Assembly (NCBI GenBank): GCA_038852285.1
Contig: JAWCKG010000003.1
Location: 1 to 64,000 of the forward strand
DNA: 64,000 nucleotides
Direction of reading: 5' to 3'
Origin: Candidatus Bathyarchaeia archaeon
GTDB lineage: Archaea; Thermoproteota; Bathyarchaeia; 40CM-2-53-6; DTGE01
Below the pieces are notes generated by a model. That model ran no database searches and had not been told where the DNA came from. It worked only from the letters and a program-made list of their open reading frames with translations. The translations under genes and the position numbers were made by a program. The number at the start of each line of letters is the position of its first letter. Positions within the stretch are counted from its first letter, which is position 1. This document shows positions 22,860-44,471 of the stretch, piece after piece.

Positions 22860-23828
22860 ATGGTGACTTTTTTTGTTGCTTTAGGTGGTAATGCGATAAA
22901 GCGAGCTGACGAGAAAGGAACCCCGGAAGAGCAGTTTAGAAATTGCGCTATAACTTGTAGACTTATAGTAGAGATGGTGAAAAGAATGGAAAAAGACGAT
23001 AGGCTGATAATTACGCATGGTAATGGTCCACAAGTAGGTAACCTAATAGTACAACAGGAGGCAGCAAAACACATAGTCCCAGCTCAATCATTGGACATTA
23101 TTGGGGCGATGACTCAAGGACAAATTGGTTACATGCTACAACAGACATTAACTAATTACTTAAGAAATGCGGGGATAAATATACCGGTCTGTGCTGTGGT
23201 GAACCAAGTATTGGTGGATAAAAATGATCCGGAGTTCTTTGGTGAAAACGCTTCAAAGCCAGTTGGAGAGTTCTTAACAGAGGAAATGGTAGAGAAAATG
23301 AAGAAGAAGCATCCAGAGTATGTTATCAAGAAGGTAAAACCGGTAGGAAAAAGGGTCTGGAGGAGATGCGTCCCATCCCCAGATCCGATAGCCAACGTTG
23401 AAAGTGACGTAATAAAAAAGTTAGTTGATGATGGTGTTATCGTCATCGCCTCTGGAGGGGGGGGCATACCAGTAATACTGGATGAGAACGGAGAGTACAA
23501 GGGAGTAGAAGCAGTAATAGACAAAGATCTTGCTGGAGAAAAATTGGCCGAAGCTGTCAACGCAGATGTATTTTTGGTTTTGACTAACGTAGAAGAGGTA
23601 AAGCTTAATTTCGGTAAGCCTAATGAAAGAAGCGTGGATAGGATGAGCCTTACAGAAGCGAAAAAGTACTTAGAAGAGGGGCATTTTCTTCCAGGAAGTA
23701 TGGAGCCAAAGGTTAGGGCGTGTATAAGGTTTCTGGAATGGGGTGGGAAAAGGGCAATTATCACATCATTAGACAAAGTCCTTGAAGCACTTGAAGGAAA
23801 GGCAGGTACATTAATTTACCGAGATTAA
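22860..23828 (+). CDS. arcC: Carbamate kinase
   Basis: A 322-residue amino-acid-kinase-fold enzyme that interconverts carbamoyl phosphate plus ADP with ATP, ammonia and CO2; in catabolism it makes ATP. Motifs seen are 'VALGGNAIKR' at 5-14, 'ITHGNGPQVGNL', 'SPDPIANVESDVIKKLVD', 'SGGGGIPVI' and 'DKDLAGEKLAEAV'. The open frame continues 21 codons upstream, but the ATG at 22860 has a strong AAGGAGA site. The gene looks more A/T-rich than its neighbours. It opens the catabolic island with the FdrA/DUF1116/DUF2877 genes, which fits ATP generation from carbamoyl phosphate rather than arginine deiminase use; no arcA or arcB is present. Confidence 0.96.
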   Translation: MVTFFVALGGNAIKRADEKGTPEEQFRNCAITCRLIVEMVKRMEKDDRLIITHGNGPQVGNLIVQQEAAKHIVPAQSLDIIGAMTQGQIGYMLQQTLTNYLRNAGINIPVCAVVNQVLVDKNDPEFFGENASKPVGEFLTEEMVEKMKKKHPEYVIKKVKPVGKRVWRRCVPSPDPIANVESDVIKKLVDDGVIVIASGGGGIPVILDENGEYKGVEAVIDKDLAGEKLAEAVNADVFLVLTNVEEVKLNFGKPNERSVDRMSLTEAKKYLEEGHFLPGSMEPKVRACIRFLEWGGKRAIITSLDKVLEALEGKAGTLIYRD

Positions 23829-23850
23829 TCTTAACGCTCTTTTTAAGATT
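23827..23850 (+). terminator. Hairpin overlapping carbamate kinase stop
   Basis: AATCTTAA (23827-23834) and TTAAGATT (23843-23850) form a perfect 8-bp stem with loop CGCTCTTT. The left arm overlaps the last bases of the stop codon. It is a likely 3' end structure or terminator and would isolate arcC as a single-gene transcript. Confidence 0.45.
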
Positions 23851-24099
23851 AGGTGCTCACGGAAATAGTGCTACCGCTCTTGTATCTTGCTTACGGGCCG
23901 CGACCATTAAACGGTAGCGCACACAGGATTTGGCGCAATGATAGTGAGGTTTATTTTTGGTAAAGGACTTAGTATGAAATGAATGAAAAGATTTTTTTAA
24001 GCTTTTTAGGAGAATTTTCGTCGAATTAAATGCGCGAAGGCTCTCCGTCCGATGGGGTAGCTGGGGATTCGCTAACACGCCTTGGGTAGGAGGAGTTTA

Positions 24100-24312
24100 G
24101 TGCGCTTACAATCCGGCGTGAGATTGAAGGGAAGGCTGAAATGGGGTTTTGCGACGAACCCTGAGGGGAAAAGTATGTTTATGCATGCTCTACTTAGCAT
24201 GCCCCACGTAGGACAGTCATTCTTGGACAGAAAAGGGCTGGCTGAGAAGTATTTAAGGGAGCTTAATGATAAGGTGTCTGAAGATCTTAAACTTTCGGAA
24301 AGGTGGTTGTAG
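24100..24312 (+). CDS. Small hypothetical protein (uncertain)
   Basis: A possible 70-residue protein from a GTG preceded by GGTAGGAGGAG, a strong ribosome-binding site. The product begins 'MRLQSGVRLKGRLKWGF' and ends 'NDKVSEDLKLSERWL', with no recognised motif. It lies in a stretch between arcC and the importer where other short, seemingly broken frames occur, so it may be part of a decayed element rather than a gene. Confidence 0.35.
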   Translation: MRLQSGVRLKGRLKWGFATNPEGKSMFMHALLSMPHVGQSFLDRKGLAEKYLRELNDKVSEDLKLSERWL

Positions 24313-24805: not shown

Positions 24806-24815
24806 GCTTATATAG
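24806..24815 (+). promoter_or_regulatory. TATA box for BMP-family binding protein gene
   Basis: GCTTATATAG is a close match to the archaeal TATA box. It predicts transcription start near 24837, which places the GTG at 24815 inside the promoter and so favours the TTG at 24848 as the true start. Confidence 0.6.
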
Positions 24816-24847
24816 TGTTCGAAGCAAAAAACAAAAAGGGTGTTTTT

Positions 24848-26254
24848 TTGTCTAAGGAAAAAGTTGAGGAGGCAAAAACGACGTCTAAGATAACAAGAAG
24901 GCAATTTGCCGCAGGCGTTGCCATAGCTGTTGCCTCTGGCGCCGTTGGGGCTGTCATTGGTGGCACTGCTTTCCCAAGGGTCAAACCGGGAGAGGTTGTT
25001 ACGAGAGAAGTTACGAAAACTGTTACGAAAGAGGTTGGGAAAACGGTTGAAGTTGAGCGAAAGCTTACTCTGGGTTTTGTTTTGGGAGGTTATGTGTCAG
25101 GATCTACTTGGGACGGCCGATTCATTGTGGGTGCAGAGCGATTAAAAGCGCTTTATCCTTGGTTCGACTACGCCTACGATGAGGGAGTAGTGCTTGGAGG
25201 GAGAGACCCCGCTGCGTCGGCTAGGGACCTCATCGAGACGAAGGGAGCGGACCTCGTCGATAGTAGCTGGGAGCCTGGGGGCGTACCTGCATTCCACACG
25301 TTGGCGAAGGAATACCCAGATGTCTACTTTTTTGATACCATAGGAAGCGATATTTCTTCGGAAAGAAATTTCTCGAGGTACTTTATACGACAATATCAGG
25401 CGATGTATCTGGAAGGCCTCGTGGCGGGGGCGTTGACTAAATCGAATAAGATAGGTGTATCTGTAGGCCCTGTATGTGTTCAGAACTTCAGGCGAATGGC
25501 CGCCTTCTACTTAGGAATAAAGGAAGCGAATCCAGCTGCAAAGCTTTACATCAAGTACGTGGGAGAGTGGTACAAGCCTGAGGTGGAGAGGGATGTTTCA
25601 CTAGCCCTAGCAGATCTTGGAGTCGATGTTCTAACTAACTACACAGACTCCACGGCTCCCCTTGAGGTCTGTAAAGGTAGAGGAATCTGGTATGTAGGTA
25701 AAGACACGGATATTGTGAGCATAGGTAACAAAGCCTTGAATATGGATATCATAGGGAAAGAACCTTGGGGGACCACGGATGTGGTAGCGGTTTCATTCGA
25801 TACCCGTTGGGAAGTGCTGTGGAATTACTACCTAAAAGAGTACAGGGTTGGCATTAAAAACCCAGCCAGATTAGTGTTCCTTGGCATGGATGATTACATA
25901 TCTCTGCCCGCTGATAACCCGTATGTGCCTGGAGAAACTAAGTTGTTGGCCGTTGACTTACAGACTAATGGTAAGATAGGCGTCGACGCCATAAGTCCAA
26001 AGGCAAGAGCGAATATACCTGGCGAGTTAATAGAGCTGATCGAGAATAGAAGGGCCCAGATGATGGCAGGAGTATGGGATCCATTCTTCGAGTACCAATT
26101 AGTTAGTGGTGGAAAGGGCATAGAAATACCAGAGCTTAAACTAACAGTTCCACCTAAAGGGACGGTGGTTAAACCCGCAAGAACAGTGGCCAGCGATGAT
26201 TTTCTGCTCGCAAAACTCAACTTCCAACTTGATGGCATAGAGCTGATCGAGTAA
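24848..26254 (+). CDS. BMP/PnrA-family nucleoside-binding protein of ABC importer
   Basis: A 468-residue extracytoplasmic substrate-binding protein of the basic-membrane-protein (BMP/PnrA) family, which binds purine nucleosides in characterised members. The N-terminus has a twin-arginine-like 'TRRQFAAGVAIAVASGAVGA', suggesting export by Tat and membrane anchoring. A Thr/Lys/Val-rich linker (about 50-80) precedes the binding domain that starts 'LTLGFVLGGYVSGSTWDG'. The TTG start is set by the TATA box at 24806-24815 and a GGGTG site. It converges on the permease, ATPase and DUF2877 genes, which complete the transporter. Ligand could be a purine nucleoside, free base or a related heterocycle. 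Confidence 0.88.
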   Translation: MSKEKVEEAKTTSKITRRQFAAGVAIAVASGAVGAVIGGTAFPRVKPGEVVTREVTKTVTKEVGKTVEVERKLTLGFVLGGYVSGSTWDGRFIVGAERLKALYPWFDYAYDEGVVLGGRDPAASARDLIETKGADLVDSSWEPGGVPAFHTLAKEYPDVYFFDTIGSDISSERNFSRYFIRQYQAMYLEGLVAGALTKSNKIGVSVGPVCVQNFRRMAAFYLGIKEANPAAKLYIKYVGEWYKPEVERDVSLALADLGVDVLTNYTDSTAPLEVCKGRGIWYVGKDTDIVSIGNKALNMDIIGKEPWGTTDVVAVSFDTRWEVLWNYYLKEYRVGIKNPARLVFLGMDDYISLPADNPYVPGETKLLAVDLQTNGKIGVDAISPKARANIPGELIELIENRRAQMMAGVWDPFFEYQLVSGGKGIEIPELKLTVPPKGTVVKPARTVASDDFLLAKLNFQLDGIELIE

Positions 26255-26261
26255 AAACCCC

Positions 26262-26290: not shown

Positions 26291-27178
26291 TTATTCCTTC
26301 ACATAGGGCAAGCCCAGCGCCGCAGGTTTTGCTAATCCCCATTTCCTTCTGAACTTTGGGCTTAAAATTATCATCAACACTATGAGAGTCGCGATGAACG
26401 GAAGCATTCTATAAACGCCTAGGGGTATGCCGAGGCCTCCTGGAAAAATCACTTCAGGTGAAACGCCAAACTGCCATATCGTTCCGAAAAGCAAGGCGCC
26501 TCCAAGCAGTATGAAAGGCTTCCACATGGAAAAGAAAACAAGAGCGAGAGCAATCCATCCCATGCCTGACGTGGGGATATGGCACCAAACTCCTAGATAA
26601 CTCAAAATTAAAAACGCGCCCGCTAAACCGCTTAGCAATCCGCCTACGATAACGGATAGGTAACGGATTCTCGTGACATTTATCCCTGTGGCCTCCGCGA
26701 CCGAAGGATCCTCCCCCACCGACCTTATTTCTAGCCCTAAACTGGTCCTGTAAAGTATAAACCAAACGATGAAAACAAGCGCAAGTGCAACGAAAAACAG
26801 TGGGGAAAAAATTCCACCAATCTTAGGAGAAGATAGCCCTGCAGGCAAGGGACCCGAGTACTTATCTGCCCACCAAGTAGCGAAACCCATCGCAAAGATC
26901 CATATTCCCATCCCGCTGATAACTTGGTCAACTTTCAACGTTATTGAGAGTAATCCGTGGAGAAAGCCGAAAATTCCCCCAATGATTGTCCCGACTATGA
27001 AACCGAGCGCGAGACTTCCACTTTGAATCGCGGTTACGAAACCAGAAGCTGCTCCCATAAGCATCATTCCTTCTATTCCAACATTGAGGATGCCCGAACG
27101 CTGATCCCATAGCTCTCCTAGAGCAGGGAGCAGGAAGATCGTCATCGTCTCGAGACATCTCACAATAAACGGCCACAT
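26291..27178 (-). CDS. ABC transporter permease, YufQ-type
   Basis: A 295-residue inner-membrane permease of the branched-chain/nucleoside importer family, with about eight hydrophobic segments. The family signature 'GMMLMGAASGFV' near the N-terminus, 'GQ..GILNVGIEG'-type opening ('SGILNVGIEGM') and 'GLLSGLAGAFL' in the middle are visible. It pairs with the next permease to form the channel. The gene ends the minus-strand operon, 10 bases after the upstream permease. Confidence 0.92.
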   Translation of the reverse strand: MWPFIVRCLETMTIFLLPALGELWDQRSGILNVGIEGMMLMGAASGFVTAIQSGSLALGFIVGTIIGGIFGFLHGLLSITLKVDQVISGMGIWIFAMGFATWWADKYSGPLPAGLSSPKIGGIFSPLFFVALALVFIVWFILYRTSLGLEIRSVGEDPSVAEATGINVTRIRYLSVIVGGLLSGLAGAFLILSYLGVWCHIPTSGMGWIALALVFFSMWKPFILLGGALLFGTIWQFGVSPEVIFPGGLGIPLGVYRMLPFIATLIVLMIILSPKFRRKWGLAKPAALGLPYVKE

Positions 27179-27188: not shown

Positions 27189-28262
27189 TCATTCCTTCTC
27201 TCGTATGATTTTGTATCGATGGAAGAACTGGAAGGCGGTGAACGTGAGGAAGAGAATTCCTATGAAAACATTATCAAGTCCAAATGTTAATCCAAGTCTT
27301 CGAACCAGAATGCTTCCCCCCTCTCTCAGTGACCCGATAAAGATCGATGCCGGGATCGCTGCGATTGGGTTTAAGAGGCAAACTAAACCAACAATTATCC
27401 CCCAGAAGGTGAAGTCCCCTATCCCCATGTACCCTTCAGGCCTTGGAATTCGGCCGAAAGAAGGGTCGCCGGCCCACATATGGTATGCGGACAGTCCAGC
27501 TATCGCCCCGCCGACGGCTGTCACGAAAATTAACATCTTAAGCGGATTCATTCCCGCATATTTGGCTGCGGTTGGATTACTGCCATAGCACCTGATCTGG
27601 TAGCCAATACTCGTTTTTGTGAGCAAAAAGTGAAATATTGCAGATATGGCAATAGCTAGAGGTACGGTAAAGGGTATCTTTCCGATTGTCGGCGCCATCG
27701 CGGATGCCGGTAAGAAACGGCTCTCGGACTCCGAAACGCCCATCCACGGTCCCCCTATAACCAAACAATAGATCAGCCAGAAAGCGATGTGATTTAACAT
27801 AATGGTCGTCACTACTTCATTTACACCCCATTTCTCCTTCAAAAATCCAGCGATTGCCCCATAGCCTGCGCCGAATAGGCTTGCTGCGATTAACATGAGT
27901 GGAATAAGAACTCCGGATGGAAGATTGCCCCAAGCGTATGCGACCGCGAACGCGCCAACCGTTCCAAGGTAAAACTGTCCTTGTACGCCCACGTTCCAAA
28001 ACCCAGTTTTAAGCGGGAGAATGAACGCAAGAGTGATAAGCAACAGGAACATGCTCCTGTGGATTGTCATCACCAGTCCGAGTCGAGGGTTAAAAGCAAA
28101 AGAGAATATATTTCTATACGCCTCTGCTACATCGGCTCCCTCCAGAAGGAGGAAGATGCTAAAAACAGCAAAGGCAACGATTATCGAAGCGGTGGATATT
28201 TTGACAGCGTCTCGACCCGTTAACACAAGCATCTTCTCAAGCTTTAGCCTTGGGATCCTCAT
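27189..28262 (-). CDS. ABC transporter permease, YufP-type
   Basis: A 357-residue permease with roughly ten hydrophobic segments. 'PLKTGFWNVGVQGQFYLG', 'GAIAGFLKEKWGVNEVVTTIMLN' and 'GYQIRCYGSNPTAAKYAGM' are characteristic of the larger permease of BMP-type nucleoside importers; only short runs are cited. It sits between the ATPase gene (16 bases upstream) and the smaller permease gene. Confidence 0.92.
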   Translation of the reverse strand: MRIPRLKLEKMLVLTGRDAVKISTASIIVAFAVFSIFLLLEGADVAEAYRNIFSFAFNPRLGLVMTIHRSMFLLLITLAFILPLKTGFWNVGVQGQFYLGTVGAFAVAYAWGNLPSGVLIPLMLIAASLFGAGYGAIAGFLKEKWGVNEVVTTIMLNHIAFWLIYCLVIGGPWMGVSESESRFLPASAMAPTIGKIPFTVPLAIAISAIFHFLLTKTSIGYQIRCYGSNPTAAKYAGMNPLKMLIFVTAVGGAIAGLSAYHMWAGDPSFGRIPRPEGYMGIGDFTFWGIIVGLVCLLNPIAAIPASIFIGSLREGGSILVRRLGLTFGLDNVFIGILFLTFTAFQFFHRYKIIREKE

Positions 28263-28277: not shown

Positions 28278-29888
28278 TTATGGCTCCTCCGCCGGTGCGC
28301 CAGCCATCATCGCCCCTATGCTTTCTTTTCTCGCTTTTTCCGCTGGAACGATGCTCACAAACCTGCCTTCATAGATAGGTGCTATTCTATCGCTCATTTG
28401 CAGAACCTCGTCTAGATCCTCGGAGACCAGCAAAATTCCCATTCTTTCTTCTTTGCAGGCCATCAATTTGTTTCGAACGAACTCAGTTGCACCCACATCT
28501 AGTCCATGCGTGGGTAGATTAGCGATCAGAAGCCTCATGGTCCTTGGAATTATTCGCGCTAAAATCAACTTCTGCAAGTTCCCTCCAGAGAGGTGCGCCG
28601 CCTTTGTGTCAATGCTGGGGGCTGTTACATCGAATTCGGAAATGACTTTTTCAGCATGTTCACGGATCTTCTTGTAATTCAGAAGGCCGCGCTTGGAAAA
28701 TTCTTCGTCAAACCAAAGGTTCATCGCGATGTTTTCGACCAGTGAAAACCCTCCGACGCTGACCTCTACGCGCTCAGGGGGGATATACCCTATGCCCATC
28801 TTCAACCTTTCGAGAACCGAGGCGCCGGTGATGTCGCTGCCCTGAAAAACTATCTTCCCCCCTTCAGGTTTGCGGAGGCCAGCCAAGACCTCAGCCAATT
28901 CATGTTGCCCGTTACCGCTGACTCCCGCTATTCCGAAGATTTCACCTTCTCTGATGGAAAAAGATACGCCTTTAAGAGCCAAGACCCCTCTATCGCTTAG
29001 CGCCGAAAGGTTCTCCACTCGTAGTACCTCTTTTCCAATTTTCACCTCGGGCTTTTTCACCCTAAAGAGAACCTCCCTTCCAACCATATACTCAGCCAAG
29101 GCCTCCATCGTAGCCTCATCCCTCTTAAGACGCTGCACCACCTTTCCCTTTCTGAGAATGGTGACCCTATCGCTTACCTTGAGCACCTCGGGCAATTTAT
29201 GGGTGATAAAGGGGATGATAGCAAGTTCGTTCATAGCCATTGCCCGCAGGGATTTTAAGAATTCTTCGGTTTCAAGAGGAGTTAAAACTGAAGTTGGCTC
29301 ATCGAATATCAAGAGCTTTGCGCCCCGATAGAGGGCCTTTAAAATCTCCACCAACTGCTGTTCTCCAGCGGAGAGCTGCCAAACCGTCGCGTTGAGGTCT
29401 ATTTTAAAACCATATTTCCTGCAGAGTTCCTTTACCTCACCCTCGGCCCTCCTCATATCCGGAATTTTCTCAGTCTTCGGATGCCCGAGGACTATATTTT
29501 CAAGAACGGTGTGGGCCGGTATCAACTTTCGATGCTGGTGGACCATCCCTATTCCTAGGTTTATGGCGTCTAAAGGCGATTTGAATTTGACCCTCCTCCC
29601 GCGGACGTAGATCTCCCCTTCGTCGGGTTGTAATAATCCGAATAAAATGTTCATCAAGGTGGTCTTTCCAGCGCCATTCTCCCCGAGGACGGCGTGGACC
29701 TCGCCAGCTTTTATCTCAAAATCTATGTGATCGTTAGCGACAACCCCTGGAAACCTCTTTGTGATCCCTCTCGCCTCCAAGACCGTTTCACCACGCCTCA
29801 ACCCTTCCAGAAGGCCGCTCAACGCTTGTTTCCCGCTCTGAGGTTTCCTCCGCACAAAAAGATCCTTTTTCTGAATGAGAACCGACAA
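28278..29888 (-). CDS. ABC importer ATPase with two nucleotide-binding domains, YufO/RbsA-type
   Basis: A fused double ATPase of about 536 residues energising the nucleoside importer. The first domain has Walker A 'GENGAGKTTL', signature 'LSAGEQQLVEIL' and Walker B 'LLIFDEPTS'. The second has the degenerate Walker A 'GVSGNGQHEL' and signature 'LSGGNLQKLILAR', as usual for this family, with 'ANLPTHGLDVGA' in place of a standard Walker B. I choose TTG 29888, one base beyond the DUF2877 stop and preceded by AGAGGTG, over GTG 29897. This arrangement makes translation of the ATPase coupled to DUF2877. Confidence 0.9.
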   Translation of the reverse strand: MSVLIQKKDLFVRRKPQSGKQALSGLLEGLRRGETVLEARGITKRFPGVVANDHIDFEIKAGEVHAVLGENGAGKTTLMNILFGLLQPDEGEIYVRGRRVKFKSPLDAINLGIGMVHQHRKLIPAHTVLENIVLGHPKTEKIPDMRRAEGEVKELCRKYGFKIDLNATVWQLSAGEQQLVEILKALYRGAKLLIFDEPTSVLTPLETEEFLKSLRAMAMNELAIIPFITHKLPEVLKVSDRVTILRKGKVVQRLKRDEATMEALAEYMVGREVLFRVKKPEVKIGKEVLRVENLSALSDRGVLALKGVSFSIREGEIFGIAGVSGNGQHELAEVLAGLRKPEGGKIVFQGSDITGASVLERLKMGIGYIPPERVEVSVGGFSLVENIAMNLWFDEEFSKRGLLNYKKIREHAEKVISEFDVTAPSIDTKAAHLSGGNLQKLILARIIPRTMRLLIANLPTHGLDVGATEFVRNKLMACKEERMGILLVSEDLDEVLQMSDRIAPIYEGRFVSIVPAEKARKESIGAMMAGAPAEEP

Positions 29889-29889
29889 T

Positions 29890-30912
29890 TCATACACCTC
29901 TTAGAGATGGCGTGTTATCACTACTCTTTGTGCTAACTATTATTTGCTCACATTTTTCCCGATCCATGGAATTTAGACATCCATACATGGATAAACCGAG
30001 GTGAAGCCCGAGTAGAACCCCAACAACCGTATCGATCCCCGAAGTTTCACCTATTCTTGAAACTCTTTCGAACTCCATTTTTACATCCTCGGCCGTGCCC
30101 CCAAGTATCGACTCAAGTAATTTCTCTACGGCCTCATTTACCTCGCCGTTGGCTGCGTGTCCCAGCAACCGCTGGCTTATCAATGTCGTTTTTCTCACCC
30201 TACCTACAATCGCCTCATTCATCGCCCTGACGCGGTCGAGGTCCCCGCCAAGCGAGTTGGCGATCCACCAGTTTGCGGCCATGAACCCTGCCAGTGCGTC
30301 GTCAGCGGAAGGAGAAAGCCCGAAGCCTAGCCCTATAAGTCTTTGGGCGCTTTCCTCTACACCTCGCACATCACCTGTTCTCGCCGATTTTACCAGGTTT
30401 ACCAGACGCGGCAGAATGGTCTCGATTACCAGGTCTGAATAAGACACTTCTGGCACGATCCCGGAGACTATCTCTTCAACATGGGGAAGTAATTGCCCCA
30501 GCCCCTCAGGTTTGCTCTTATTCGCTGCAAGTTGCTTCACCACCTCCAGGTTGCGCTTGATGAGTTCAGAGCTAAGGCATCGTTCAGAACAGGTTTTCGG
30601 TTGCCAAAGCTTCACGTCTTCCAACGAGATTTCAAGCACCTCACCGACACGCATTCGATCACCCACTCGCCGAACTCGCATTCCTCTGCGGATGCCGAGC
30701 GAGGGCATACTTTCGCTTGGGAGCATGTCGGTGATTAAATTGATCGGGCTTCGTAAGATGTCGCTGCAACCTATTCCCACAAGCTTCCCTTCGATCAAGA
30801 TGTTGAAGACGCGCTCGAAGACGCTGTGAACTTCACCCTCAGTGCTTGCCCTTAACGCTCTGAACGCGGCTGGACCAATCGAGATAGCCCTAACGATTCG
30901 CAGAAAATCCAT
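29890..30912 (-). CDS. DUF2877 protein, AllH-like carbamoyltransferase component
   Basis: A 340-residue protein of the DUF2877 family. The family motifs are clear: 'GLGFGLSPSADDALAG' near 203-218 (usual form GLGxGLTPSGDD) and 'GETSGIDTVVGVLLGL' near 299-314. The E. coli homologue AllH (YlbF) acts with AllF (FdrA) and AllG (DUF1116) as oxamate carbamoyltransferase in anaerobic allantoin use. Both partners are encoded 3.4-7.4 kb away on the opposite strand. Here the stop codon TGA nearly touches the start of the importer ATPase, linking carbamoyl transfer with substrate uptake. The acceptor/donor in this organism need not be oxamate. Confidence 0.88.
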   Translation of the reverse strand: MDFLRIVRAISIGPAAFRALRASTEGEVHSVFERVFNILIEGKLVGIGCSDILRSPINLITDMLPSESMPSLGIRRGMRVRRVGDRMRVGEVLEISLEDVKLWQPKTCSERCLSSELIKRNLEVVKQLAANKSKPEGLGQLLPHVEEIVSGIVPEVSYSDLVIETILPRLVNLVKSARTGDVRGVEESAQRLIGLGFGLSPSADDALAGFMAANWWIANSLGGDLDRVRAMNEAIVGRVRKTTLISQRLLGHAANGEVNEAVEKLLESILGGTAEDVKMEFERVSRIGETSGIDTVVGVLLGLHLGLSMYGCLNSMDREKCEQIIVSTKSSDNTPSLRGV

Positions 30913-31523: not shown

Positions 31524-31549
31524 TCTTTCACCTCCATTTTTAATGATCT

Positions 31550-31888
31550 TCACTCCAATGGTTCAAACTTGAATCCATAAATATCTTTTTCATTTAATTT
31601 TCGAAGCTTCCCCCAGACGGGCTTCAGCAACATCCCAATCTTTGGATAGTCGGTGCTCACCTGGCCTAGCATTCTAATGCCGCTGAAATCAGCTATGCCG
31701 AGCGTCAGGGGCGGCATCTCTATTCCCTGCGGTAACGTATATAGCTTAGTATACGTGGTCAACTTGCCCACTTTAGGCAGCTCAACTTCCTCAAACTCAG
31801 TTGCTTTACAGCTTAGACATCGGTCATGCTTAGTGCTCATCACCCGCCCACAGGCTTTACACTTGAATCCAACGAATTTTTGCTCCAT
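31550..31888 (-). CDS. DUF35 zinc-ribbon/OB-fold acyl-CoA-associated protein
   Basis: A 112-residue protein of the ChsH2-like DUF35 family. The rubredoxin-like zinc ribbon has 'CKACGR' and 'CLSCKA'; the OB part begins 'GKLTTYTKLYTLP'. In archaea and bacteria these proteins bind acyl-CoA and bridge thiolase-type partners, as in the thiolase/HMG-CoA synthase complex. I place the start at ATG 31888, three bases past the thiolase-like stop; the longer frame overlaps it. Pairing with the upstream thiolase homologue is expected. Confidence 0.88.
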   Translation of the reverse strand: MEQKFVGFKCKACGRVMSTKHDRCLSCKATEFEEVELPKVGKLTTYTKLYTLPQGIEMPPLTLGIADFSGIRMLGQVSTDYPKIGMLLKPVWGKLRKLNEKDIYGFKFEPLE

Positions 31889-35910: not shown

Positions 35911-37295
35911 TGTCGGATCGACCGAAGCTGATAAACGTCGGGGCATACTCCTTCTACGAGAGTATGCGTGCTCAGGGAGCCGATGCTGTTCACGTAGACT
36001 GGCGTCCCCCAGCGGGAGGCGATCCGGAGTTAGCGCGAATGTTGACAAGATTGGAGCGTCCTGAAATAGATGAGGCTAACAGGAAAGCCGTTGCAAAAAT
36101 TCTCGCCGCGAAGCCTATGCTTATTGGCATTAAAGCAGCAAAGGATGTAATCTCCGGAATGACTGAACATACGATCCTGCACTCTGGGCCGCCGATTGAA
36201 TGGGAGCGGATGTCCGGCCCTATGAAGGGAGCTGTTTGGGGCGCGTTGATCTATGAGGGATTGGCGAAGGATCAGAAGGAGGCGGATGAGCTCGTTAAGA
36301 GCGGGGAGATAAAGTTCGGAGCATGCCACGATCACGATTCCGTAGGTCCGATGGCGGGAATAATCTCGCCTTCAATGCCAGTCTTCGTCATAGAAAATCA
36401 GGAGAATGGCAATCGCGCTTACTCAAACTTCAACGAGGGGCTTGGTAAGGTGCTACGGTACGGGGCCTATGAAGAGAGCGTGATCGCGCGGCTGAAGTGG
36501 ATTGAGAAAACATTGGCACCCATCCTGGCGGACGCGCTCAAGCGCTCGGGACCCATCGACCTCAAGGCTATAATGGCACAGGCGCTACACATGGGTGATG
36601 AGCTTCACTGTAGAAACGTTGCGTCTAGCTTGATATTCCTGAAATCCATGGCCCCCCACATCGCAGAAACAGGTTACGATAGGAAGGAGGTGGGGGAGGT
36701 GATAAAATTTATGGGTGAGAATTCTCTTTTCTTCCTCAACCCAGCGATGGCCGCGGCCAAGGCGATGGTGGACGCCGCACACAACATTAAGCACTCCACA
36801 GTTGTCATAACTCTCTCGAGAAACGGCACAGACTTCGGAATAAAGGTGAGCGGACTCGGCAACCGTTGGTTCACGGCGCCAGCGGAGATACCTAAGTTGC
36901 TTTGCTTTCCAGGGTTCACGGAAGCCGACGCGAACCCTGACATCGGAGACAGCGCGATCATGGAAACAGCTGGATTCGGGAGCTTCGCATGCGCCGCCTC
37001 ACCGGCGGTGGTTCAAGTCGTCGGCGGATCAGCAGAAGAAGCCATAGAACATACCCGGGAAATGTGGGAGATATGCCTGGCGAAAGACAAGAGCTTCTCC
37101 ATCCCCTTCCTGAACTTTGAGGGCACACCGCGAGGCATCGATTTGAGAAAGGTAATGGACACGGGAATCCTCCCGATTATCAACACTGGCGTCGCTCACA
37201 AGAAGCCTGGCTTCGGCACAGTTGGCTTCGGAATTCTCAGGGCGCCGATAGAGTGCTTTAAGAAAGCGTTGAAAGCGATGGCTGAAAAGTACTAA
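35907..37295 (+). CDS. DUF1116 protein, AllG-like carbamoyltransferase component
   Basis: A 462-residue DUF1116 (YlbE/AllG) protein. Family features seen are 'VHVDWRPPAGGDPELAR' near residue 27-43, 'GACHDHDSVGPMAGIISPSMPVF' (key residues HDHDSVGPM near 148-156) and 'NRWFTAPAEIP'. In the AllFGH enzyme this is an essential subunit for carbamoyl transfer between oxalurate and phosphate. Coupled to fdrA by an ATGA overlap. After its stop 670 bases of spacer separate it from the molybdenum hydroxylase genes. Confidence 0.93.
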   Translation: MMSDRPKLINVGAYSFYESMRAQGADAVHVDWRPPAGGDPELARMLTRLERPEIDEANRKAVAKILAAKPMLIGIKAAKDVISGMTEHTILHSGPPIEWERMSGPMKGAVWGALIYEGLAKDQKEADELVKSGEIKFGACHDHDSVGPMAGIISPSMPVFVIENQENGNRAYSNFNEGLGKVLRYGAYEESVIARLKWIEKTLAPILADALKRSGPIDLKAIMAQALHMGDELHCRNVASSLIFLKSMAPHIAETGYDRKEVGEVIKFMGENSLFFLNPAMAAAKAMVDAAHNIKHSTVVITLSRNGTDFGIKVSGLGNRWFTAPAEIPKLLCFPGFTEADANPDIGDSAIMETAGFGSFACAASPAVVQVVGGSAEEAIEHTREMWEICLAKDKSFSIPFLNFEGTPRGIDLRKVMDTGILPIINTGVAHKKPGFGTVGFGILRAPIECFKKALKAMAEKY

Positions 37296-37965
37296 TCCTT
37301 AACGGGGGCGTCTATCACCCTCCAAAGCCACATGTAACTCTTTTTTAATAAACCAAATTAGAGATTTCACGTCAAAGATGCTCGAAGAAGACTCTATTTA
37401 CCATGCTCGATGCTCAAGTCATTTATATGCTTGAACTTGCGAAAGCTAGAAACCCGTAAGGCGGTCACATAAAGGCTATTCGACCTAGAGTACGGTATTA
37501 GTTTAATATTAGTTTACATGTCCGACCTTAAGAGCCCAGTGGACGTAGCTCTGGTTTAAATCGACGGTGTGAAATGCGACGGATCATTGCGGAGGAGAGA
37601 GATGGCCTGAGTTGATGACAAGCCCCTTTAGGTCTAGGTGCTATCGCTAGGGATTTTATTATGAATAAGTTCCCCTGCAAGGATAGAAAGGCACGAGACG
37701 AGAAGGTGTGGTGTGTGAGCATAAATGGCGAAATTCTAGAAATGGACTGGAAACATCTCACCAAGCGGACACGCAATTCCGTGCATGAAGCTCGCGTAGG
37801 AGCCGTAAGCGCCTATGGCTGGGATTAAGTCTGCTTTTCCTCACGCTCTTCCAAACGAAATCCAAGCATCAATCATACTTAAATAGGGATTTAGCGTCTT
37901 CCTATTTATCATAACCTCCGCCAAATGTCGATGAAAGAAAGACTTTGGCATAAAGTGAGGAAGTG
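37296..37965. other. Long intergenic region before molybdenum hydroxylase genes
   Basis: About 670 bases. It contains a possible 55-codon gene at 37661-37828 and TATA candidates CTTAAATAGG (37878-37887) and CCTATTTATC (37901-37910) for the downstream operon. The rest shows short open stretches interrupted by stops, which may be remains of an inserted element; I found no terminal repeats. Confidence 0.4.
37661..37828 (+). CDS. Small open reading frame, uncertain
   Basis: A 55-residue frame starting at ATG with GGGAT eight bases upstream. The product has balanced, protein-like composition ('KVWCVSINGEILEMDWKHL') and the same frame is open for another 14 codons upstream. I do not recognise it. 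It may be a gene fragment left by rearrangement between DUF1116 and the hydroxylase operon. Confidence 0.3.
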   Translation: MNKFPCKDRKARDEKVWCVSINGEILEMDWKHLTKRTRNSVHEARVGAVSAYGWD

Positions 37966-40314
37966 ATGAAAAAATATTTGTATATTGGTAAGGATGTCCC
38001 TCGCGTTGACGATTTTGAAAAAGTAACGGGCACAGCCCAATACACCGCGGACTTAAGACTTCCGGGGATGCTCTACACTAGGCTACTGAAAAGCCCCCAC
38101 CCCCATGCCCGCCTGATTAGCATAAAAACGAGCGAGGCCGAGAAGCTTCCCGGTGTACGCGCGATTCTAACGGGCAAAGAGGTCCCTTACAAGTTCGGAA
38201 TCTACATGCAGGATAAGAGTGTGCTCGCTCAAGAAAAAGTTCGCTACGTCGGTGAGCCTGTGGTCGCGGTCGCGGCCAACACCGAAGAGATCGCAGAGCA
38301 AGCAGTCGAGCTCATAAAGGTAGAGTATGAGGAGTTGCCCGCTGTCTTCGACCCGAGAGATGCCATAAAAGACGGTGCGCCGCTGGTGCATGAACGCCTT
38401 CACGAGTACATGCATGCTCCCTTCATCTTCCCGGAATCCCACACAAATATCGCCAATCACTTCAAGCTCCGCAAAGGCGATGTGGAGCGGGGCTTCAAGG
38501 AAGCAGATGTGATCGTAGAGAACGAGTTTTACCAGCCCCAAGTTCAGAACGTGTCGATGGAGACTCAAAACTCCATTGGGCAGTGGCTTCCGAATGGGCA
38601 GATAAACATTTGGACGAGTGCTCAATCGCCCTTCGCCGTTCGACATCTCCTGAGCGTGGGATTGGGCGTTCCCATCCATAAGATCAACGTTGTGGTTCCC
38701 TATGTTGGTGGCGCGTTTGGAGGAAAGGCGGGGCTTCACTGGGAACCTTTAGCGGTCCTTCTCTCGAGGAAGGCTGGTGGAAGACCGGTGAGGCTGATGA
38801 TGACTCGTGAGGAGCAATTCAACACAGCTGCCGTCCGTCAGGGTCTCTACGCGCGCATCAAGACAGGAGTTAAACGAGACGGAAAAATAGTGGCCGAAGA
38901 AATCCTCTACATTTGGGATGCCGGTGCCTACGCGGATTACGGCGTGAATATAGGGAGAGCCGCAGGTTACTCCTGCACGGGGCCGTACGAGGTCCCAAAT
39001 GTCAAATGTGATAGCTTGACGGTCTACACCAACCACCCTTATGGCACTGCCTACAGAGGATTTGGTCATGCAGAGTTTCACTTCGCAGTAGAGCGGCAAA
39101 TGGACCTCGTCGCTAGGGCGATCAGCATGGATCCGTTAACGTTCCGTTTGAAGAACGTTGCGCTACCTGGAAGCGTCACCGCTACTGGAGAGAGGCTTTG
39201 CAAGGATGCCGGACGAGTGGACGAATGCCTCAAAGCCGTTGCAGAAGCGATAGGGTGGAAAAAGAAAAGGAAGAAGCAAAAGCAGGTAGGGGGAAAGCTC
39301 AGCGGAATAGGGATAGCTGCGCTTTGGAAAGCCCCGGCGATGCCATCCTTCACCTCTTCTTCCGCGATTGTGAAGCTCAACGAGGATGGAAGCATCACCC
39401 TCTCCATTAGCCTCACGGAAATTGGTCAGGGGACTCCGACAGCCTTTGCCCAGATGGTGGCAGAGGAGATGCAGATGCCGATCGAGAAGATCAAAGTTGT
39501 CACCAAGCGAGAAACGGATTTCAGCCCATACTCCTGGCAGACCGTGGCCAGTCGCGGTCTCTTCATGGATGGCAACGCCGTGCTCAGGGCTGTTGAGGAT
39601 CTCAAGAAAAAGGTGAAGGCCACGGCGTCCGAGTTATTAGGGATGCCATTGGAGGGGCTGGAGATAGCGAACGAGCGGGTTTTTGTAGCTAGAGAGCCTG
39701 AGAAGGGAATACCTCTGAGCGCGATTGCGACTTGCGGCGTTTTGCCCGACGGAAGGGGCATCCACGGCCCCATACTCGGGTACGGGTATTACACTGCTGA
39801 AGGACTAACCAACCTCGACCCGGAAACAGGGCAGGGGTTGCCGGCGCTTGTGTGGACCTTCGGGGCTCAGGGGGCTGAAGTGGAGGTGGATACGGAGACA
39901 GGCGAGGTGAGGGTGCTCAAGGTAGCCTCCGCATTCGACATCGGGAAAGCCATCAATCCGTTACTAGTTAAGGGCCAGGTATATGGCGGCATTGTGCAGG
40001 GCGTTGGGAGCGCGCTTATGGAAGAGTTCATCTTTGACAGGAGGGGGGCCTTACTGAACAACAACCTAACTGATTACAAGATCTGCAGGGCTCAGGATAT
40101 TCCAGACGAATTCATATTCATCCCCATCGAGAACCCTCAGCTCAATGCCCCCTATGGCGCGAGGGGCGTCGGTGAACATGTAAGGATATCTATTGAGCCG
40201 GCGATAGCGAACGCCATCTACGATGCCACTGGAGTTGACCTCTTCGAGATCCCGATGACTCGAGAAAAAGTTTGGAAAGCGCTTCAGAAGGTGAAGGAAA
40301 ATGCCGCTACCTAA
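37966..40314 (+). CDS. Molybdenum hydroxylase large subunit (xanthine dehydrogenase family)
   Basis: A 782-residue molybdopterin-binding catalytic subunit of the xanthine dehydrogenase/aldehyde oxidase/CO dehydrogenase family. 'GGAFGGK' near 252-258, 'AYRGFGHAEFHFAVERQMD' near 363-381 and the C-terminal 'GARGVGEHVRISIEPAIANAI', whose Glu is the catalytic base, are present. The active-site loop of CO dehydrogenase (AYRCSFR) is absent, so this is a hydroxylase. Substrate is probably a purine or other N-heterocycle, given the transporter and carbamoyl genes. ATG 37966 follows GAGGAAGTG. It overlaps the FAD-subunit gene by 14 bases. Confidence 0.93.
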   Translation: MKKYLYIGKDVPRVDDFEKVTGTAQYTADLRLPGMLYTRLLKSPHPHARLISIKTSEAEKLPGVRAILTGKEVPYKFGIYMQDKSVLAQEKVRYVGEPVVAVAANTEEIAEQAVELIKVEYEELPAVFDPRDAIKDGAPLVHERLHEYMHAPFIFPESHTNIANHFKLRKGDVERGFKEADVIVENEFYQPQVQNVSMETQNSIGQWLPNGQINIWTSAQSPFAVRHLLSVGLGVPIHKINVVVPYVGGAFGGKAGLHWEPLAVLLSRKAGGRPVRLMMTREEQFNTAAVRQGLYARIKTGVKRDGKIVAEEILYIWDAGAYADYGVNIGRAAGYSCTGPYEVPNVKCDSLTVYTNHPYGTAYRGFGHAEFHFAVERQMDLVARAISMDPLTFRLKNVALPGSVTATGERLCKDAGRVDECLKAVAEAIGWKKKRKKQKQVGGKLSGIGIAALWKAPAMPSFTSSSAIVKLNEDGSITLSISLTEIGQGTPTAFAQMVAEEMQMPIEKIKVVTKRETDFSPYSWQTVASRGLFMDGNAVLRAVEDLKKKVKATASELLGMPLEGLEIANERVFVAREPEKGIPLSAIATCGVLPDGRGIHGPILGYGYYTAEGLTNLDPETGQGLPALVWTFGAQGAEVEVDTETGEVRVLKVASAFDIGKAINPLLVKGQVYGGIVQGVGSALMEEFIFDRRGALLNNNLTDYKICRAQDIPDEFIFIPIENPQLNAPYGARGVGEHVRISIEPAIANAIYDATGVDLFEIPMTREKVWKALQKVKENAAT

Positions 40315-41161
40315 ATTTGACTACCTTAGGCCGGAGACGGTCGAGGAGCTCACCGCCATACTCGCCAAGTATGGGGCAGACGCGAAGCTATTGGCTGGAG
40401 GAACCGACCTACTTGTGTTGATGAGGGAAAGGCTCATCCGGCCGAGGTATGTGATAGACATTAAGGGGATTAGGGACTTGCACAAGCTCTCATGGGACGA
40501 AAAAGAGGGGCTGACGATAGGCGCCACTGTGACGCTGAACGAGTTGATAGCCTCAGAGGTAGTTAGGGAAAGCTTTAACGTGCTCTGGAAGGCGGCGAGC
40601 ACGCTTGCAGACCCGACGATAAGGAACCGCGCGACGCTTGTCGGGAATATTTGCAACGCTTCGCCAGCAGCCGACACCGCTCCAGCGTTGCTTGTGCTCG
40701 ATGCCGAAGTGGAAGTTGTGAACGCGAATGGCAGGAGGATAATTCCCATCCGAGATTTCTTCACGGGGGTTAAGCGCACATCTCTTAAGCTGGGTGAGTT
40801 CGTCGAGGCTGTGCGGATACCGAAGTCGCCTGATGGTGCTAGGGGAGATTACCTTAAGTGGGGGCGCACGCGCGGCGAGGACTTAGCCGTCGTAGGTGTA
40901 GCGGCCTTGGTAGCGAATTCAGGGAAAGAGATCATGCGCATCGCCTTGTCATCGGTGGCTCCAACGCCGTTGCGCATTTTTGAGGTCGAGGAAATCCCAA
41001 TGGGGGGGTGCTCCCCAGCTGAGCAAATTAGTAAAGCGGTTTCAATTGTCAGAGAGAAGATTTCCCCGATTGCAGATGTACGGGGCGGGAGAGAGTACCG
41101 AACACACATGGCGGGTGTGCTCACCAAGCGCATCCTTGAAGGCCTATTGGGGGTGAGCTGA
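40301..41161 (+). CDS. Molybdenum hydroxylase FAD-binding subunit
   Basis: A 286-residue medium subunit passing electrons from the iron-sulfur clusters to an acceptor. The FAD motifs 'LLAGGTDLLVLM' near 31-42 and 'TIRNRATLVGNICNASPAADTAP' (key TIRNRATLVGN near 107-117) are typical. The physiological acceptor may be NAD+ or ferredoxin; the sequence does not say. The start overlaps the large-subunit gene, and the final TGA overlaps the ATG of the next gene. Confidence 0.94.
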   Translation: MPLPKFDYLRPETVEELTAILAKYGADAKLLAGGTDLLVLMRERLIRPRYVIDIKGIRDLHKLSWDEKEGLTIGATVTLNELIASEVVRESFNVLWKAASTLADPTIRNRATLVGNICNASPAADTAPALLVLDAEVEVVNANGRRIIPIRDFFTGVKRTSLKLGEFVEAVRIPKSPDGARGDYLKWGRTRGEDLAVVGVAALVANSGKEIMRIALSSVAPTPLRIFEVEEIPMGGCSPAEQISKAVSIVREKISPIADVRGGREYRTHMAGVLTKRILEGLLGVS

Positions 41162-41625
41162 TGTCGAGGCACAGGATTTCCCTCAAGGTGAACGGACTTC
41201 GACATGAGGTTGATGTAGAGGCGAATAAGACCCTCCTCCAGCTACTCCGCGACGACTTGGAGTTGACCGGAACAAAGCTCGCGTGTGAGCGTGGAGACTG
41301 CGGGCTTTGCACCGTACTGATCGACGGGATGCCGGTGAAGTCGTGCTTAGTGCTCGCAGTCGAGGTCGACGGGCACGAAGTGACCACAATAGAAGGTATT
41401 TCTGGCGAGGAACTCAACTCCGTGCAGAAAGCCTTTATAAAACATGGGGCAGTGCAGTGCGGCTTCTGCACTCCCGCGTTTATCCTAACCGCGACAGCTC
41501 TACTCAAGCGCAACCCGAAGCCTACTGAAGAAGAGGTGAAAGAAGCCATCGGTGGCATTCTCTGCAGATGTACAGGTTATCGGCAAATCATAGACGCGGT
41601 TTTAGACGCCGCTAAAGAAAGATAG
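41161..41625 (+). CDS. Molybdenum hydroxylase [2Fe-2S] subunit
   Basis: A 154-residue small subunit with two clusters. The plant-ferredoxin-type site is 'CERGDCGLCTVLIDG' near 41-55 and the helical-domain cluster is 'CGFCTPAFI' with 'CRCTGYRQI' at the end. It joins the large and FAD subunits in an alpha-beta-gamma enzyme. ATG overlaps the previous stop by one base. Confidence 0.95.
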   Translation: MSRHRISLKVNGLRHEVDVEANKTLLQLLRDDLELTGTKLACERGDCGLCTVLIDGMPVKSCLVLAVEVDGHEVTTIEGISGEELNSVQKAFIKHGAVQCGFCTPAFILTATALLKRNPKPTEEEVKEAIGGILCRCTGYRQIIDAVLDAAKER

Positions 41626-41739: not shown

Positions 41740-42552
41740 ATGGCAACTGACGCAGAAATCCTAAAACAATTAGCGCATCTTCTAGAAGAGGGGAGAAGGA
41801 TAGCTCTATGCACGATCATTGAGAAGAAAGGTTCCGGACCAAGGAACGTCGGAGCAAAAATGATTGTAAGCGAGGATGGTAAAACTGTTGGAACGATCGG
41901 GGGTGGAAGTTTGGAGAGGGCTTTAATCGACGAATCTTTAAAGGCCTTAAGAGAAGGTAAGCCGAAGAAAGCTGTTTTCTCACTTGGGGGAGGTGGTGAA
42001 GGGGCGATTGAAACAGGGTTAATTTGTGGAGGTGAGTTAACAATTTTTATCGATCCAATAGAACCTAAACAGAGGCTCATCGTGATCGGAGCTGGACACG
42101 TAGCTTACCCCCTTGCAAAATTGGCGGATATTTTGGGGTTCAGCTTAGTTGTTGTAGACGATAACGAGGAACTAGCTAACAGGGAGAGATTTCCGATGGC
42201 TCAGGAGATAATCACAGGCAGATTTAATGAAATATTGGATAAGATAGAGATAGGTTCACGCGATTTTGTTGTTATTCTTCACGGGGAGCCTGAACACGAC
42301 TTCTTGGCGCTGGAGAAAATTATTAAAAAGAGACCAGCCTATGTTGGCCTGCTTGGCAGCAAATCAAAGGTAACAACGCTTGTAAAGAGGCTCAGAGAAG
42401 CGGGAATAAGCGACGAGGATCTCAAACTGCTACACGCCCCATTAGGCTTAGACATCGGCGCTCAAACCCCTGAGGAAATAGGAATAAGCATCCTCGCCGA
42501 AGTAATAAATGAGAAAAGGAAAAGGCGCTCATCATTAAAGAGTATGGGTTAA
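41740..42552 (+). CDS. XdhC/CoxI-family molybdenum cofactor insertion protein
   Basis: A 270-residue maturation protein. The N-terminal XdhC domain shows 'KGSGPRNVGAKMIV' and 'GTIGGGSLERALIDE'; the C-terminal Rossmann-like part has 'VIGAGHVAYPLAKLADILGF' and 'GLLGSKSKV'. In bacteria XdhC binds the molybdenum cofactor and delivers its sulfurated form to xanthine dehydrogenase. It lies 114 bases downstream of the hydroxylase genes and five bases before moeA, so it is dedicated to them. Confidence 0.92.
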   Translation: MATDAEILKQLAHLLEEGRRIALCTIIEKKGSGPRNVGAKMIVSEDGKTVGTIGGGSLERALIDESLKALREGKPKKAVFSLGGGGEGAIETGLICGGELTIFIDPIEPKQRLIVIGAGHVAYPLAKLADILGFSLVVVDDNEELANRERFPMAQEIITGRFNEILDKIEIGSRDFVVILHGEPEHDFLALEKIIKKRPAYVGLLGSKSKVTTLVKRLREAGISDEDLKLLHAPLGLDIGAQTPEEIGISILAEVINEKRKRRSSLKSMG

Positions 42553-42557
42553 ACTTT

Positions 42558-43817
42558 ATGTGGATTTCTAAAAAATTTACTTATACTTCATTACAAGAGA
42601 CTCATCGGTTAATAAGGGAAATAACAAGAGGGAAAGCAGAACGTGAGGTGGCTTCTGTTTTTCAAGCGTATAACCGCGTTTTAGCTGAGGACATTATATC
42701 CGAGGTGGATATCCCCCCTGTCAGCGTTTCTCATTTTGATGGATATGCTGTTAGGGCTGAAGATTCTTTTCAAGCATCCATTAAGAACCCTGTTCTTTTG
42801 AGAGTGGTTGGCAGGATTTATCCAAATAAGGAATATAATGGTGAAGTAAACGTTGGGGAGGCGGCTTACATTTCAACAGGTGCAAATTTACCTGCCGGCG
42901 CTAACGCGGTTATACCTATTGAGTTAGTTAAAAATAAAGGCGATTTTATCGAGGTTCGCCGGCGCGTAAAGACATATGAAAACGTTATTCCTGCTGGATC
43001 GGATGTGAAAAAGGGGGAAACAATTTTTAAAGTTGGACATGTTCTACGCGCTCAAGACATCAAGCTTTTGATGGATATTGGAAAATGGGGGGTTAATGTT
43101 TTCAAAAAACCTGTTGTCGCGATAGCTTCAGTTGGAAGTGAGCTCACCAGTCAGATTGAGGAAACTGATGAAAAGAAATTTAGCAGTCATGGCGAAATGA
43201 TTTCAATTTTAGTGGAGGAAGCGGGTGGGGTTCCGCTAAACTTAGGGATAGCACCTGACGATGTAAACGTCATTAAGGGAACGTTAAGGAAGGGGCTTGA
43301 AAAGGCTGAGATCGTAGTGACTGTTGGCGGTGCCTCTGTGGGGGAAAAGGATTATGTTTTGGAAGCTATTAGCCAGCTTGAATCCTCTAAGGTCTTGATG
43401 CGTGGCGTTAAGGCACAGCCTGGTAGAGTTACTAGCTTAACCGTGGTGGGGAGCAAACCCATCGTAATGTTGCCGGGTCATGTTCAATCTACATTAGTTG
43501 GATTCTATTTAATCCTTTTACCGTTAATTAGACAAATGGGCGGGCTTCAATCGCCTTTCCCACTTATAGCGCTGAAAGCAAGAATGTCCAAGAAATTGTT
43601 ACTTAAGGAGTTCGTGTCCTTTGAGAGGGTGAGATTTGTTAACATAGCTAAAGTAGCCAGTGATTACATCGCTGAATCCATTCTAGGGGACTCATCTCTC
43701 ACCAGCGTAGTTGTAAAAGCCAACGGCTTCGTTATAATGCCGGAGGGTAGGGAGGTCATCGAAGAAGGGGAGGAGGTAAATGTGCATTTGGTCAACGGGC
43801 TGTTTCCTTTAATATAA
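42558..43817 (+). CDS. moeA: Molybdopterin molybdenumtransferase MoeA
   Basis: A 419-residue MoeA that inserts molybdate (or tungstate) into adenylated molybdopterin. Features are 'SHFDGYAVRAEDS' near 56-68, 'STGANLPAGANAVIP' near 106-120, 'GGASVGEKDYV' and 'LPGHVQSTLVGF'. The last is usually LPGNPVS; the change to LPGHVQS is notable but within the family's range. The gene is A/T-richer than the hydroxylase genes by eye. Its place five bases after the XdhC-like gene ties it to the island. Confidence 0.93.
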   Translation: MWISKKFTYTSLQETHRLIREITRGKAEREVASVFQAYNRVLAEDIISEVDIPPVSVSHFDGYAVRAEDSFQASIKNPVLLRVVGRIYPNKEYNGEVNVGEAAYISTGANLPAGANAVIPIELVKNKGDFIEVRRRVKTYENVIPAGSDVKKGETIFKVGHVLRAQDIKLLMDIGKWGVNVFKKPVVAIASVGSELTSQIEETDEKKFSSHGEMISILVEEAGGVPLNLGIAPDDVNVIKGTLRKGLEKAEIVVTVGGASVGEKDYVLEAISQLESSKVLMRGVKAQPGRVTSLTVVGSKPIVMLPGHVQSTLVGFYLILLPLIRQMGGLQSPFPLIALKARMSKKLLLKEFVSFERVRFVNIAKVASDYIAESILGDSSLTSVVVKANGFVIMPEGREVIEEGEEVNVHLVNGLFPLI

Positions 43818-43874
43818 GCTCTCAAAAGCCGGTTATTTTTATCAAGAATTTTAAATAAATGGTGCTCGAGAATT

Positions 43875-44471
43875 TTGATCTGCGTCATCGTGTTAGCCGC
43901 GGGTTCGTCAACGAGGTTTAGAAGAAACAAGTTACTTGAGAAAATAGACGGCTCTATTATGATTGAGAGGGTTGTCAAAAGTGCAGTATCTTCCAAAGCT
44001 GATGAAGTGGTTGTGGTGTTGGGTCATGAAGCGCAAAGAGTCAAGGAGGCCCTTAAGAATTTTGAATGTAAGTTCGTTTTTAATAAATACTTTAAGAAGG
44101 GTCAAAGCTATTCAGTTAAGGCTGGTGTTAAGTCTGTTATGGGTTATGCGGACGCCGTGATGGTGCTTCCAGGAGACGTCGCGCTAATCACCTCTAAGTC
44201 CATTAACATGGTTATTGAAGAATATGAAAAGTGTAGAAGTCTCATTATTGTGGCAAGCCATAAAGGACAATCAGGCCATCCCGTACTCCTTAACCGCTCC
44301 CTCTTTAACGAAATAATGGAAATTAGCGAGGAGACGATGGGCTTGAAAGCAGTTATGAATAGACATAGAGACTCTGTAAAGAAGGTGGAAGTGGGTTCAA
44401 ACGAAGTCCTAATTGATATTGATTCTGAAGAAGATTTGAATAAGATTTCAGAAAGTAAAAATACCATTTAG
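43875..44471 (+). CDS. MocA/MobA-like nucleotidyltransferase
   Basis: A 198-residue NTP-transferase. The N-terminal 'VLAAGSSTRFRRNKLLEKIDG' (residues 5-25; the key pattern is LAAGxSxRxxxxKLL) and 'LPGDVALIT' near 96 match MobA/MocA and IspD-like enzymes. Position after moeA and an xdhC homologue favours MocA, which makes the cytidylylated cofactor used by xanthine dehydrogenase-family enzymes in bacteria. The start is TTG 43875. Confidence 0.85.
   Translation: MICVIVLAAGSSTRFRRNKLLEKIDGSIMIERVVKSAVSSKADEVVVVLGHEAQRVKEALKNFECKFVFNKYFKKGQSYSVKAGVKSVMGYADAVMVLPGDVALITSKSINMVIEEYEKCRSLIIVASHKGQSGHPVLLNRSLFNEIMEISEETMGLKAVMNRHRDSVKKVEVGSNEVLIDIDSEEDLNKISESKNTI

Follow-up and report, generated by a model that had tools for sequence, protein, structure and literature searches.

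Gene content of the island

The 64,000-nucleotide stretch of DNA analysed here (hereafter the window), from contig JAWCKG010000003.1 of a Candidatus Bathyarchaeia archaeon, contains an island of catabolic genes for a probable oxidative pyrimidine pathway, anaerobic and energy-conserving, with substrates and reactions assigned from protein families, conserved gene association, motifs and folds. The source genome (1.7 Mb, 99% complete) has a single AllG. The island is arranged as two divergent gene runs around 33.96-34.34 kb. The plus-strand run encodes FdrA, AllG, the large, medium and small subunits of a molybdenum hydroxylase, and XdhC, MoeA and MocA; the minus-strand run encodes a cyclase-family hydrolase, a thiolase-like protein, a DUF35 protein, a GNAT-fold protein, AllH, and the ATPase and two permeases of an ABC importer. 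The genes for a BMP protein and for carbamate kinase lie on the plus strand, to the left of the divergent runs. A preliminary description of this DNA had named arcC, a BMP importer set, DUF2877, a cyclase, fdrA, DUF1116, a three-subunit hydroxylase and its cofactor genes, and we found all of them in place, with strong family scores; the GNAT-fold, DUF35 and thiolase-like genes between allH and the cyclase gene had, however, been overlooked.

The FdrA, DUF1116 and DUF2877 subunits that characterize oxamic transcarbamylase are encoded together in the island. The FdrA/AllF-like subunit (34345-35910, plus strand) scored 466 bits against PRK06091 (cut-off 433), the AllG-like (DUF1116) subunit (35907-37295, plus strand) matched PF06545 at 1.2e-95, and the AllH-like (DUF2877) subunit (29890-30912, minus strand) matched PF11392 at 4.9e-22, above the cut-off. 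Carbamate kinase, which converts carbamoyl phosphate and ADP to ATP and carbamate, is encoded by arcC (22797-23828, plus strand; TIGR00746, 371 bits, passing the cut-off of 358). The earlier pairing of an AllFGH-like carbamoyltransferase with carbamate kinase is borne out. In Escherichia coli, AllFGH is the oxamic transcarbamylase that acts with carbamate kinase in the anaerobic use of allantoin (PMC11326118). The allFGHK locus likewise combines the three subunit families with a carbamate kinase, and phosphorolysis of an N-carbamoyl amide is expected here too; however, the window AllG is only ~46% identical to its counterpart there, the E. coli locus has allE, allC and allD and neither a cyclase nor a hydroxylase, and its substrate is oxalurate, whereas ureidomalonate is proposed for the window complex. 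As a separate observation, the N-terminal ~50 residues of AllG in the window (35907-36053) correspond to positions 509-554 in the FdrA model, the C-terminus of E. coli FdrA, as if a segment had perhaps been shifted between subunits.

The cyclase-family hydrolase, the proposed barbiturate ring opener (33132-33959, minus strand; PF04199, 2.7e-36), has the PF04199 fold and the HxGTHxD metal-binding motif, and its metal ligands H61, H65, D67 and H71 show 95% or higher conservation across 84 sequences. The closest solved fold to its predicted model (pLDDT 84) is that of isatin hydrolase (PDB code 4m8d, E 1.5e-15), which catalyses the metal-dependent opening of a cyclic amide, although the two enzymes are only ~22% identical and the proposed substrate differs. 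A search for AtzD/TrzD-family barbiturases (PF09663) found none in 35 cluster genomes (0/35), while it did match the AtzD of pADP-1, used as a positive control. In three related loci (L013, L020 and L054), two cyclase domains are fused in tandem into one protein of 554-578 aa, and the metal motif of the first domain is altered.

The hydroxylase consists of a large subunit, the proposed uracil hydroxylase (37963-40314, plus strand; MoCoBD_1/2 domains; motifs GGAFGGKAG, TAYRGFG and GARGVGEHV), a FAD subunit (40301-41161, plus strand; PF00941, 3e-55) and a [2Fe-2S] subunit (41161-41625, plus strand; PF01799, 2.2e-31). It belongs to the xanthine dehydrogenase family of molybdenum hydroxylases, and keeps the catalytic Glu motif and the conserved Arg of the RGFG/RGAG motif, residues with known roles in xanthine oxidase.

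Conservation of the gene set in related loci

Using the window AllG as query we retrieved 80 loci, mainly from Firmicutes and Chloroflexi, and these were compared together with archaeal loci from order and phylum searches, giving 101 loci in all (individual loci are denoted by L numbers). Among the 61 AllG loci that span 17 kb or more, FdrA was present in 61/61, the cyclase in 58/61 and the hydroxylase large subunit in 51/61, with a UraA-like permease in 31/61 and a type III CoA-transferase in 26/61. The median distance from allG to the cyclase gene was 88 bp, and the cyclase and hydroxylase genes were placed around allG in eight ways across Firmicutes, Chloroflexi and archaea, so that the association with allG has survived rearrangement. 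On these counts and arrangements, chance adjacency of the gene set was rejected. The preliminary description had staked its pathway on conservation of the neighbourhood in relatives, and the set is indeed conserved; its term 'archaeal' was too narrow, since most of the related loci found are bacterial. The hosts, many of them anaerobes, include human gut species and the cultured anaerobes Anaerotruncus colihominis DSM 17241, Alkaliphilus and Fusibacter species. AllG was found in 21/398 genomes sampled from the phylum of the window, with a cyclase or hydroxylase at most of those loci, and the closest AllG found (80% identical) comes from a metagenome-assembled genome that, by its label, is putatively of the Hodarchaeaceae. 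In the AllG tree the cyclase-bearing loci did not form one clade, but long branches weaken the tree and we gave it no weight. Both AllG loci of E. coli (allFGHK, and yahEFGI with the amidohydrolase yahJ) are without cyclase and hydroxylase. The second of these (yahE-yahJ, L088) includes an AllFGH-like set, a carbamate kinase and a gene similar to cytosine deaminase, and resembles the window-type cluster in reduced form.

The same comparison bears on whether the island might be two separate neighbouring modules, one made up of AllFGH, ArcC and the cyclase and the other an unrelated molybdenum hydroxylase of the aldehyde or glyceraldehyde type. The top score of the [2Fe-2S] subunit was indeed to glyceraldehyde dehydrogenase gamma, below the cut-off, and a gap of 0.67 kb separates allG from the hydroxylase genes in the window; against this, the hydroxylase accompanies AllG in 51/61 long loci, in varied positions, and the same place is taken by two different hydroxylase subfamilies. 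We consider such a division very improbable indeed.

Proposed reactions and alternatives

In the pathway we propose, the importer would take up a nucleoside, a base or a related ureide, the molybdenum hydroxylase would oxidize uracil at C6 to barbiturate, and the cyclase-family metallohydrolase would open the barbiturate ring to give ureidomalonate (3-oxo-3-ureidopropanoate). Phosphorolysis by FdrA-AllG-AllH, homologous to the E. coli reaction of oxalurate with Pi to give oxamate and carbamoyl phosphate, would then yield malonamate and carbamoyl phosphate, from which carbamate kinase would make ATP. In most bacteria, a malonamidase-like amidase would hydrolyse malonamate, a CoA-transferase or malonyl-CoA synthase would activate the product, and decarboxylation would give acetyl-CoA. 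A route from uracil through barbiturate and ureidomalonate to malonate (uracil/thymine dehydrogenase, barbiturase and ureidomalonase) is known in aerobic bacteria (PMC3758960), and the proposed barbiturate, ureidomalonate and malonate intermediates would be common to both; the aerobic pathway, however, uses an AtzD-type barbiturase where we find a PF04199 cyclase, and a urea-forming hydrolysis where carbamoyl phosphorolysis with a gain of ATP is proposed.

The uracil permease, cytosine deaminase, malonamidase-like amidase and malonyl-CoA genes carried by relatives suggest that a pyrimidine enters the pathway and malonate leaves it. In the window itself, import would depend on the BMP/PnrA-type substrate-binding protein (24815-26254, plus strand; PF02608, 4.7e-19), two permeases (26291-27178 and 27189-28262, minus strand; PF02653 (BPD_transp_2), 1.3e-33 and 3.1e-33, respectively) and an ATPase with two ABC domains (28278-29897, minus strand; PF00005 in two stretches; NF047930, 493 bits, under the cut-off of 670). 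The ligand of the BMP protein is expected to be a nucleoside, a pyrimidine base or a cyclic ureide; BMP importers are present in related bacterial and archaeal clusters, and the cyanuric-acid cluster of pADP-1 also has one. The clostridial cluster permease scored 279-284 bits against uracil permeases, compared with 73 against a uric acid-xanthine permease, and the Chloroflexi cluster permeases tested scored best as uracil permease. A cytosine deaminase lies beside allG in L135 (482 bits, curated cut-off 438), and related amidohydrolases occur in seven other loci; the L132 protein most resembles AtzC and cytosine deaminase, and the window genome encodes, on a different contig, a homologue 66% identical to it. 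The presence of purine/uridine phosphorylase was given no weight as evidence, being near-universal.

The preliminary description had favoured a purine, which would be imported and hydroxylated, the derived ring opened and the carbamoyl group released by phosphorolysis. The family of the hydroxylase, PucR regulators and the archaeal permeases at L117 and L133, which best match xanthine permease, would fit this view. However, the hydroxylase scored only 589 bits against the NCBI xanthine dehydrogenase (XdhA) model, under the cut-off of 780. In xanthine oxidase a Glu residue contacts the purine, yet the homologues have Ala, Ile or once Gly at this position, never Glu: Ala in the window enzyme and in most of the archaeal-clostridial group, and Ile in the Chloroflexi group. 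Furthermore, the annotated clusters contain pyrimidine and malonate genes instead of allantoin or urate genes, and on these neighbouring genes and the hydroxylase motif the purine or allantoin reading, which we judge highly unlikely, was rejected. Annotation of the window island and of related clusters showed no allantoinase, allantoate amidohydrolase or ureidoglycolate dehydrogenase, although no genome-wide search was made, and the earlier contention that the route differs from the known allantoin one still stands. So, with uracil as the probable substrate, does its core idea that a heterocycle may be hydroxylated and opened, and its energy kept as carbamoyl phosphate.

On the product side, malonate-type genes are seen in relatives, although none is recognizable in the window. 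Of the proteins in the PDB, malonamidase E2, an enzyme that hydrolyses malonamate, is the nearest to the Chloroflexi cluster amidase. The L018 cluster has a malonyl-CoA synthase (565 bits, cut-off 558), and that of L017 falls just below the cut-off. In A. colihominis (L074), the run leading to allH-fdrA-allG-cyclase encodes an amidase, a MatC-like carrier and a CoA-transferase, together with an MmdA-type subunit that scored 848 bits (cut-off 999). An AccD-AccA fusion adjoins the CoA-transferase in the ANGP1 loci, and a carboxyltransferase-domain protein is found in eight archaeal loci, four of them with the beta subunit of a Na+-transporting decarboxylase. Three of these archaeal loci (L118, L125 and L130) also have genes resembling PrpD and PEP-mutase/PrpB, adjoining allG and the carboxyltransferase gene, which suggests, from gene content, possible formation of propionyl-CoA from thymine.

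These genes also bear on a branch through oxalurate, in which a ring of the hydantoin or parabanate type would be hydroxylated and opened to oxalurate, AllFGH would form oxamate and carbamoyl phosphate, and oxamate would then be converted to oxalate and oxalyl-CoA. AllFGH is of the same family as the characterized oxamic transcarbamylase, and the cluster CoA-transferase gave equal scores against CoA:oxalate and succinate-glutarate CoA-transferases, as such a branch would allow. However, relatives carry malonyl-CoA synthase, MmdA/OAD-beta decarboxylase and malonamidase-like amidase, together with uracil permease and cytosine deaminase, and no oxalyl-CoA decarboxylase was met among the annotated cluster genes, leaving oxalate as end product unsupported; we regard this branch as unlikely.

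Several observations weigh against the oxidative pyrimidine pathway, in addition to the xanthine-like permeases noted above. The window is without a uracil permease, a malonamidase-like amidase and a cluster-borne deaminase, and malonyl-CoA genes occur in only 17/101 loci (a 28% identical match in L132 being left out). The window genome has a single amidase, which is GatA-like (492 bits), and no type III CoA-transferase, so that the last steps in this archaeon rest on uncharacterized proteins. The Chloroflexi cluster hydroxylase belongs to a different subfamily (26-31% identity in the large subunit), and the first step may thus differ between lineages. Finally, in the same archaeal order as the window, L085-L086 is an AllFGH-ArcC locus without cyclase or hydroxylase; AllFGH therefore likely also serves other substrates, with another carbamoyl donor at that locus.

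Parts of the proposal are known, namely AllFGH (PMC11326118), the uracil-barbiturate-malonate route (PMC3758960) and AllFGHK with a BMP importer in nitrifying archaea (PMC12625717). In the last case, allFGHK, a BMP importer and a biuret hydrolase were described in ammonia-oxidizing archaea and comammox; AllFGH, carbamate kinase and the BMP importer adjoin there as in the window, archaea included, but those loci have biuret/triuret genes and were interpreted in terms of oxalurate use, whereas the window has the cyclase and molybdenum hydroxylase and its relatives have malonate-type genes. Among openly licensed papers we found no description of these parts combined with a cyclase-family ring opener, although a prior description is possible. 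The most extended form of our proposal is tentative and, taken whole, rather doubtful: an anaerobic oxidative pyrimidine pathway widespread in archaea and bacteria, including those of the human gut, with an isatin-hydrolase-like barbiturase, an AllFGH-type ureidomalonate carbamoyltransferase making ATP, and an archaeal branch in which malonamate is converted by a GNAT protein to malonyl-CoA, itself then decarboxylated by a Cys-less thiolase. The proposed pathway would provide an ATP-yielding anaerobic route for uracil, and perhaps thymine; gene families so far named by resemblance would gain substrate predictions, and FdrA/DUF1116/DUF2877 genes should not be annotated by default as allantoin or oxalurate enzymes. 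The cultured anaerobes with the cluster make the pathway testable without the uncultured archaeon.

Candidate final steps in the archaeon and flanking genes

The three genes between allH and the cyclase gene are candidates for the last steps in the window archaeon. The GNAT-fold protein (205 aa; 30936-31553, minus strand) had no Pfam or NCBIfam match; its AlphaFold model (pLDDT 86) has a GNAT fold (E 1e-8), and PDB sequence searches with the protein and its profile gave nothing useful. The DUF35 OB-fold protein, the partner of the thiolase-like protein (31550-31885, minus strand; PF01796, 1.3e-4, below the cut-off; BbsA family, 2e-10), lies in a reading frame open from 31963, with a start near 31885 likelier. 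The thiolase-like protein (31891-33051, minus strand; PRK06064, 449 bits, cut-off 420) lacks both catalytic Cys motifs: five cluster homologues from archaea and Firmicutes have ENGPA for ENACA and HDAF for HDCF, so that the nucleophile and the HDCF Cys are absent. A second thiolase of the window genome has both Cys motifs and adjoins a DUF35 gene, and the cluster protein was accordingly rejected as a working mevalonate-route thiolase.

Co-occurrence was examined in the window and related loci, 80 in all, each 12 kb or longer. Of the 11 loci with the GNAT-fold protein, none encodes an amidase, CoA-transferase or nitrilase in its cluster (0/11), compared with 58/69 of those without it (Fisher p 7e-8, a value inflated by relatedness, most of the 11 being archaeal; L036 is counted among them though its GNAT gene is on another contig of the same genome). 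In the loci compared, none of the five thiolase-like genes was seen together with the carboxyltransferase gene. The GNAT-fold protein and the thiolase-like/DUF35 pair may replace amidase, CoA activation and decarboxylation in the window archaeon, the former converting malonamate to malonyl-CoA and the latter acting as a malonyl-CoA decarboxylase; this is the weakest step of the proposal.

Downstream of the hydroxylase genes, the plus strand encodes an XdhC-type maturation factor (41740-42552; PF13478, 1.8e-40), a MoeA-type molybdenum insertase (42558-43817; PF03453, 5e-39) and a MocA-like molybdenum cofactor nucleotidyltransferase (43875-44471; PF12804, 2.7e-34; TIGR03310, 155 bits, under the cut-off of 186). 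An Rfam scan of 18-46 kb gave no match. Directly upstream of arcC, at 18381-22324, lie four genes of a cytosolic-type NiFe-hydrogenase (4Fe-4S, NAD/FAD-binding, small and large subunits), which could be the electron acceptor for the molybdenum hydroxylase.

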